In this document: positions 47,740 to 48,685 of the stretch, in pieces
Position numbering within the stretch: the stretch's first letter is position 1
Layout: every line of letters begins with the position of its first letter
Source: Acidimicrobiales bacterium
GTDB lineage: Bacteria; Actinomycetota; Acidimicrobiia; Acidimicrobiales; JACCXE01
DNA: 64,000 bases
Direction of reading: 5' to 3'
Assembly: GCA_035546775.1 (NCBI GenBank)
Contig: DASZWD010000058.1
Coordinates: forward strand, 1 to 64,000
Translations under genes and position numbers: made by a program
Notes under the pieces: generated by a model
Told to the model about the DNA's origin: nothing
The model's database searches: none
The model's input: only the letters and a program-made list of their open reading frames with translations

Positions 47740-48111
47740 TTAGGTGCCCTCGATCAGGGCGATGACCCGGTCGAGGAGTTCGAGCGGGTCGAAGGGCTTG
47801 GTGATGTATTCGTCGGCGCCCGTCGCCATGCCGGCGCCGAGGTCGCCGGCTTGCGCCTTGGCCGACAGGAGGACGACGGGGATGCTCGCCGTTTCCGGAT
47901 CCGCCTTGAGTTCGGCGGCGACAGTCAGGCCGTCCTTTTTCGGCATCATCACGTCGAGGAGGATGCAGTCGGGGTTCTCCGCCCGGGCGGCCGCCAGCCC
48001 GGCGACGCCGTCGTCCGCGATGACGACCTTCCAGCCCTCCATCTCGAAGTTCACCTGGAGGAGACGCTGGATGACGGGGTCGTCGTCGACGACGAGAACC
48101 TTCCTGGGCAC
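47740..48111 (-). CDS. Stand-alone response-regulator receiver (CheY-like)
   Basis: 123 aa single receiver domain. Acidic pair in VLVVDDDPVIQRLLQVNF, phospho-acceptor Asp in DCILLDVMMPKKDGLTVAAE, Thr/Ser and Lys in VVLLSAKAQ and YITKPFDPLELLDRV. No output domain, so it must act by protein contact. No kinase is adjacent; the PAS-PAS-REC protein at 50714 and the cyclase nearby are possible partners only by location. Confidence 0.93.
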   Translation of the reverse strand: MPRKVLVVDDDPVIQRLLQVNFEMEGWKVVIADDGVAGLAAARAENPDCILLDVMMPKKDGLTVAAELKADPETASIPVVLLSAKAQAGDLGAGMATGADEYITKPFDPLELLDRVIALIEGT

Positions 48112-48161
48112 CTCCGCATCGTAAGCAAGAACGGCGGGCCGCTACGCTTCCAACCCCCACT

Positions 48162-48233
48162 GCCCTCGTAGCTCAGGGGATAGAGCATCGGCCTCCGGAG
48201 CCGGGTGCGAAGGTTCGAATCCTTCCGAGGGCG
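48162..48233 (+). tRNA. tRNA-Arg (anticodon CCG)
   Basis: 72 nt without encoded CCA. Acceptor stem GCCCTCG/CGAGGGC, D stem GCTC/GAGC, anticodon stem TCGGC/GCCGG with loop CTCCGGA (anticodon CCG at positions 34-36), T stem GAAGG/CCTTC with loop TTCGAAT. It reads CGG codons. Its 3' half is repeated twice downstream. Confidence 0.95.
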
Positions 48234-48392
48234 CAAAGCGCGCAGAGCATCGGGCAGCCCCGATGCTCTGGGTCGCCGGAGGTTCGAATCCTTCCGAGGG
48301 CGCAAAAGCGCGCAGAGCATCGGGCAGCCCCGATGCTCTGGGTCGCCGGAGGTTCGAATCCTTCCGAGGGCGCAAAAGCGCGCAGAGCATCG
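48234..48392 (+). repeat. Tandem 70-bp repeats: hairpin plus copies of the tRNA-Arg 3' half
   Basis: Period 70 bp: units start at 48241 and 48311, with a 12-bp start of a third unit at 48381. Each unit has a 12-bp stem with loop CAGC (48243-48270 in unit 1) built from AGAGCATCGG, a string also present in the tRNA D/anticodon region. It then has GGTTCGAATCCTTCCGAGGG, the tRNA T-arm and acceptor 3' strand, at 48281 and 48351 (intact tRNA copy at 48212). The 5' half of the tRNA is missing, so these are not functional tRNAs. Confidence 0.9.
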
Positions 48393-48685
48393 GCCCCATC
48401 CGCGCCATCGCAGCCTTCACGCTTGCCGGCGCCCTCACGTTCTTGGCGTGGAAGCGCCCGCGAGAAGGCGGAAGCCTGCTGGTCGTTGTCGGACTGCTCC
48501 CTGCGCTGACAGTGCTGCGAGTCCACGGCGGCCAGTCGTCGCTCATCGCCGCGAGTACGCCGGCGTTCGTCGCCGGCTGCCTCTTCGTCGTCTCCGCGTT
48601 CCTCGCACCCGACGACCCACAGCGCACCGCTACGTCGCGCCGGAGCGCTCGACGTCCGGGGGCGTCGCCCTCCGCGGCTCACTGA
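48392..48685 (+). pseudogene. Possible 5'-truncated small membrane protein gene
   Basis: An open frame continues from the repeat array into about 97 codons with membrane-like stretches AIAAFTLAGALTFLAWKR, GGSLLVVVGLLPALTVLRV and FVAGCLFVVSAFLA, unlike the shadow frames nearby. No ATG or GTG lies between the end of the repeat and the first hydrophobic segment; only a TTG (48443) or a start inside the repeat is available. The real 5' end may have been lost to the repeat expansion. Low confidence; it overlaps the 3' end of the DUF2127 gene. Confidence 0.35.

Follow-up and report, generated by a model that had tools for sequence, protein, structure and literature searches.

Why should an intact tRNA gene be followed by a short array of units that resemble its own 3' part? 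Such an array lies behind tRNA-Arg(CCG) in the window, a 64,000-nucleotide stretch of the genome of an Acidimicrobiales bacterium (contig DASZWD010000058.1, positions 1 to 64,000), and an earlier note made from the sequence alone had proposed that it might have arisen from repeated integration and excision or from slippage. We favor the reading, with a probability of roughly 0.6, that the array formed in this lineage when a partial duplication of the tRNA expanded in tandem by slippage or unequal recombination, and that it contains a template-switched palindrome.

Anatomy of the array

The parent of the array is an intact tRNA-Arg(CCG) gene on the plus strand (48162 to 48234), recognized by ARAGORN and by Rfam (RF00005, 65.3 bits). 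It is followed on the same strand by a unit of 69 bp (48235 to 48303), a unit of 70 bp (48304 to 48373), and a 20-bp stub of a truncated third unit (AAAAGCGCGCAGAGCATCGG; 48374 to 48393), which confirms the two full units and partial third described earlier. Each full unit consists of a linker, a hairpin, a variable-loop-like stretch, a T-arm, and an acceptor 3' strand, and reads as an A-run, GCGCG, the hairpin CAGAGCATCGGG-CAGC-CCCGATGCTCTG, GGTCGCC, and a copy of the tRNA 3' part, which is located at 48278 to 48303 in unit 1 and is made up of the T-arm GGAGG-TTCGAAT-CCTTC followed by CGAGGGC-GC. The spacer is AAA in unit 1 and AAAA in unit 2, and the two units are otherwise identical. Tandem Repeats Finder delimits a repeat of period 70 from 48211 to 48393 (2.6 copies, 99% match), the first copy of which lies inside the tRNA; the units stand head to tail, and the tRNA trailer belongs to the repeated block. 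The two bases that follow the stub, CC, agree with the tRNA and not with the unit.

The hairpin of unit 1 (48243 to 48270) has 12-bp arms (48243 to 48254 and 48259 to 48270) around the loop CAGC, and that of unit 2 is found at 48313 to 48340. Its 5' arm contains the tRNA string AGAGCATCGG, which comprises the D-stem 3' strand and the anticodon-stem 5' strand of the tRNA, and its 3' arm is an inverted copy of the same string. The proposal that a tRNA D/anticodon string and its inverse form a 12-bp hairpin thus holds, both in the sequence and in folding against shuffled sequences (see below). The T-arm and the acceptor 3' strand had been called exact copies; this is correct for the acceptor 3' strand (8/8 positions), and the T-arm has one changed T-stem base (17/18). 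The copying of the T-arm and acceptor end was likewise rightly seen, but the copy is larger: in a gapped alignment, the match between unit and tRNA starts at the D-stem 3' strand (AGAGCATCGG) and extends to the 3' end, and a longer stretch, which includes the inverted copy of AGAGCATCGG, takes the place of the anticodon segment. Neither the 5' acceptor strand of the tRNA nor its D 5' strand is represented in the units, which therefore cannot form a cloverleaf and are not tRNAs; ARAGORN and Rfam both return the parent tRNA only and find no further tRNA in the array. The search of the genome for the 70-bp unit, suggested earlier, revealed no second locus in 3.75 Mb.

A possible route to the array

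Tandem duplication followed by expansion would account for the way the units follow one another head to tail, for their identity, for the repetition of the trailer, and for the patchy distribution described below. A duplication of ~61 bp, from the D-arm to the trailer, may first have placed a copy of the 3' two-thirds of tRNA-Arg behind the intact gene. In this copy, an inverted duplicate of the neighboring D/anticodon 5' string would then have taken the place of the anticodon segment, probably through hairpin-templated template switching, so that a 12-bp palindrome was created and the anticodon destroyed. Such switching is known from quasi-palindrome correction, where it yields perfect palindromes. 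The altered unit would have been duplicated again, by slippage or unequal recombination, and a later deletion may have cut the last copy and fused the stub to the interior of the neighboring DUF7670 gene. We infer both the order of these events and the template switch. A selected function is not needed to explain the array.

The draft assembly contains 75 contigs and the two units are nearly identical, as might be expected if short reads had produced a spurious or miscounted repeat, but we consider such an artifact very improbable: the two spacers differ by one base, the flanks are unique, and arrays of the same kind are present in many assemblies, including complete Escherichia coli genomes.

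Gene context and distribution among relatives

To the left of the tRNA are argS and a response-regulator gene, and the other neighbors encode DUF7670, DUF2127, and a cyclase. The DUF7670 membrane-protein remnant (48395 to 48607, plus strand) matches positions 43 to 113 of the 118 positions of PF24709, with ~42 N-terminal residues missing, and the match, at profile position 43, starts 2 bp after the end of the array. The gene thus appears to be truncated at the array, which is suggestive only, since the N-terminus is likewise unmatched in a relative (G024). Its open frame extends upstream through the array by chance.

The response regulator is conserved beside the orthologous tRNA in four genomes belonging to other genera of the order, and argS is conserved in two of these four. 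None of the window's genes to the right of the tRNA is found behind the tRNA in those genomes, placing a synteny break at the tRNA 3' end. The earlier note had held that an array fixed across distant relatives would speak against its reading; relatives instead lack the array, which is absent behind ~20 of their tRNA-Arg(CCG/CCT) genes, including the four CCG loci that share the response-regulator neighbor. The other genome of the same genus (77% complete) has no recognizable copy of this tRNA.

Two further tRNA-Arg(CCG) loci deserve mention. In another genus, an exact 14-nt copy of the tRNA 3' end is present 4 nt behind the orthologous tRNA (L014, the same as L306 2056-2150). A decayed array was found behind a tRNA-Arg(CCG) gene in L048; its gene context is different (MgtC-like and PhoU-like neighbors, by reading), and it was therefore rejected as an orthologous array and taken as independent.

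Integration as the main rival

The main rival to tandem expansion is scarring by an old integration event, in which an element recombining in the T-loop/acceptor part of tRNA-Arg would have left attachment-site copies joined to upstream sequence from the element itself (the hairpin half), these copies would have multiplied, and the element would have been lost. We give this account some weight because of the synteny break and the conservation of the 3' part, although we judge it unlikely overall. Consistent with it, synteny is kept up to the tRNA, with nothing shared to its right, a 5'-truncated gene abuts the array, and the units directly repeat a near-exact tRNA 3' part joined to an upstream half that differs, as in displaced attachment-site fragments. 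There are also precedents. That integration can give rise to fragments of tRNA genes is established (PMC9897764), and in Dehalococcoides over a dozen direct repeats of the ssrA 3' end derive from stacked islands (PMC3146451). The present array resembles the Dehalococcoides repeats in that the T-loop-to-end part of a tRNA-type gene recurs several times downstream, with divergent sequence upstream of the core, but the ssrA copies flank genomic islands and are separated by genes and recombinases (PMC3146451), whereas the copies here are 69 to 70 bp apart with no genes between them. Similarly, integration-derived tRNA fragments (PMC9897764; Islander) share the 3' tRNA part without a 5' strand, but they are single displaced copies at element ends, in contrast to the short head-to-tail array observed here.

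Against integration, no element was seen among the genes beside the repeats, and a search of contig C58 for tyrosine integrases (PF00589) gave no match; in two relatives, the contigs that carry the orthologous tRNA likewise had no integrase match. No viral contig carried the 23-nt core of the tRNA 3' segment (0 contigs), which would have marked a mobile element elsewhere. Moreover, the repeats include the trailer, and the upstream half can itself be aligned with the D/anticodon region of the tRNA. A phage origin was rejected as well: the viral loci with T-arm triplets that we examined held no array of this kind, and those with similar units proved to be coding sequence or low-complexity repeats that did not start in a tRNA. 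In a close relative, an integrative element with CCGATGCTCTGGGTCGCCGGAGGTTCGAATCC at its end would be a candidate for having left such a scar. Of the two origins proposed earlier, slippage thus fits best and integration has no direct support, even though synteny breaks at the tRNA 3' end.

Comparison with the tyrT repeats of Escherichia coli

Tandem repeats beside the tyrosine tRNA of E. coli (tyrT; RtT RNA, rttR, tpr) have long been known and are usually treated as a curiosity; a mark of this repeat type is that the tRNA transcript gives rise to a stable small RNA. As in the array described here, an intact tRNA is followed immediately by tandem units whose 3' ends reproduce that of the tRNA, but the tyrT units are 178 bp long, of other sequence, and include only 19 nt of the tRNA. 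Behind tyrV of E. coli K-12, we found three such 178-bp units, each with the last 19 nt of tRNA-Tyr and no mismatch. Among 60 places sampled from the 5375 E. coli genomes with a match (L196), the tRNA-Tyr RtT place spanned ~267, 445, 623, 801, and 1084 bp, among other lengths, corresponding to 0, 1, 2, 3, and 4 annotated RtT units, respectively; the 1084-bp span contains an extra tRNA-Tyr. Arrays of the E. coli type can therefore expand or shrink by whole units, down to complete absence. Slippage-type expansion is the best fit to the Acidimicrobiales array because its repeat takes in the trailer, its head-to-tail units are identical, and the tyrT repeats vary by whole 178-bp units. By likeness to tyrT, where unit number is also small and is variable, the present locus may likewise change its copy number by whole units. 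The array does not belong to the Rfam RtT family, as the RtT covariance model gave no match and RF00005 (tRNA) alone passed the gathering score in the window.

Independent arrays beside other tRNA genes

The tyrT repeat has independent counterparts behind many tRNAs. Besides the locus studied here, independent arrays occur behind tRNA-Met (L044), tRNA-Trp (L174), tRNA-Ala (L176), tRNA-Val (L177), tRNA-Ser (L070 and L084), tRNA-Leu (L123), and tRNA-Glu (L074). Two T-arm motifs closer together than two tRNA genes allow were found in 13 of 198 genomes of the class, compared with 1 for a reversed-pattern control, and in most cases the first T-arm lay within a tRNA called by ARAGORN. A stricter pattern of three T-arms was matched in 6/396 genomes of the phylum and 8/395 genomes of the class (reversed-pattern control, 0); by inspection, these matches include other repeats (L175, L308, L309, and L314), so that true arrays under this pattern are nearer 1% of genomes. 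Overall, at most a few per cent of genomes carry such an array, of independent origin, beside another tRNA gene. In a scan of species genomes, the matches listed included further arrays in Patescibacteria, Omnitrophota, and Actinomycetota, along with many unrelated compact tRNA-like clusters. We found no general description of such arrays in the open literature, and absence there is not proof that none exists.

To compare unit and parent, we used five loci with both a parent tRNA and an array that had been picked by the T-arm only (L173, L311, L174, L176, and L177). L313, a poor case, was omitted from the count, and an earlier comparison of acceptor conservation was not used for this claim, being partly circular through its 80% filter on the acceptor strand. 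In the five loci, ~96 of 100 acceptor 3'-strand positions are identical to the parent, the tRNA 5' strand is absent from the units, and the anticodon segment is altered in every case. After a duplication, simple decay would be expected to spread changes evenly, so that this asymmetry speaks against our preferred reading and would be better accounted for by gene conversion, by selection, or by a chimeric (attachment-site) origin. The contrast between a kept acceptor end and a changed anticodon lends itself to tests that set slippage, integration scarring, and RNA function against one another.

Folding and a possible RNA role

The unit is predicted to be strongly structured: none of 200 shuffles was as stable (z = -3.4), and the linker segment deviates further from its shuffles (z = -4.7). 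When the full transcript is folded as a cloverleaf plus unit hairpins, its energy is -122.5 kcal/mol, compared with an unconstrained optimum of -125.6 kcal/mol (a gap of 3.1 kcal/mol). If read through, the units would form a structured 3' trailer of the tRNA transcript. The unit hairpins were ruled out as intrinsic terminators, as no T-run stands behind them.

By analogy with RtT RNA, each unit (hairpin plus T-arm) might be a released small RNA or a decoy for tRNA-processing or -modifying enzymes; the earlier note had also raised tRNA-like fragments as a possible product. A structure far stronger than that of shuffles, a fold with cloverleaf and hairpins close to the optimum, and a 3' part that is better kept than the remainder in the five arrays are consistent with this suggestion, as is the intact T-arm of the unit, which contains GUUC, a motif reported for TruB (PMC11623569). 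We nevertheless consider such a role improbable. The array is not conserved in relatives, and E. coli strains with zero RtT units exist. Furthermore, a strong hairpin is present in only some comparable arrays: linkers from 17 of 18 selected array loci were folded against shuffles, and only those of the present array, of L070, and, marginally, of L074 were clearly more stable. The lack of excess structure in most of the 17 argues against the hairpin as a conserved functional part, and we rejected it as a general one. One could also speculate that arrays of T-arm and acceptor 3' strand with a destroyed anticodon have arisen repeatedly next to unrelated tRNA genes and that selection maintains them, whether as small RNAs linked to the tRNA, as decoys for T-arm-binding enzymes, or as spare landing sites that divert integrases from the tRNA, an idea to which we assign a low probability.

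Consequences for annotation and related clusters

Such arrays yield false tRNA calls and open frames that are not genes. In L044, ARAGORN calls two tRNA-Gly(gcc) genes inside the half-tRNA array behind tRNA-Met, which are artifacts of the array. In the window, three minus-strand open frames (48051-48320, 48142-48627, and 48173-48682) are antisense to the units and built from them, and their RKDSNLR, GFEP, and RIRT motifs are reverse-complemented T-arms; these frames are likely to be annotated as false proteins.

Related arrangements were observed elsewhere. L045 carries two tRNA-Arg-like 3' parts (1130-1310), each with a perfect hairpin of 9 bp behind it (GGCAACGCC TCC GGCGTTGCC; truncated in the second copy), and no intact tRNA was found beside this array. 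Seven loci on Flavobacteriaceae contigs (L075, L115, L131, L079, L087, L113, and L128) contain compact clusters of unusual short tRNA-like genes, mostly unrecognized by ARAGORN, with T-arms spaced 64 to 68 bp apart.
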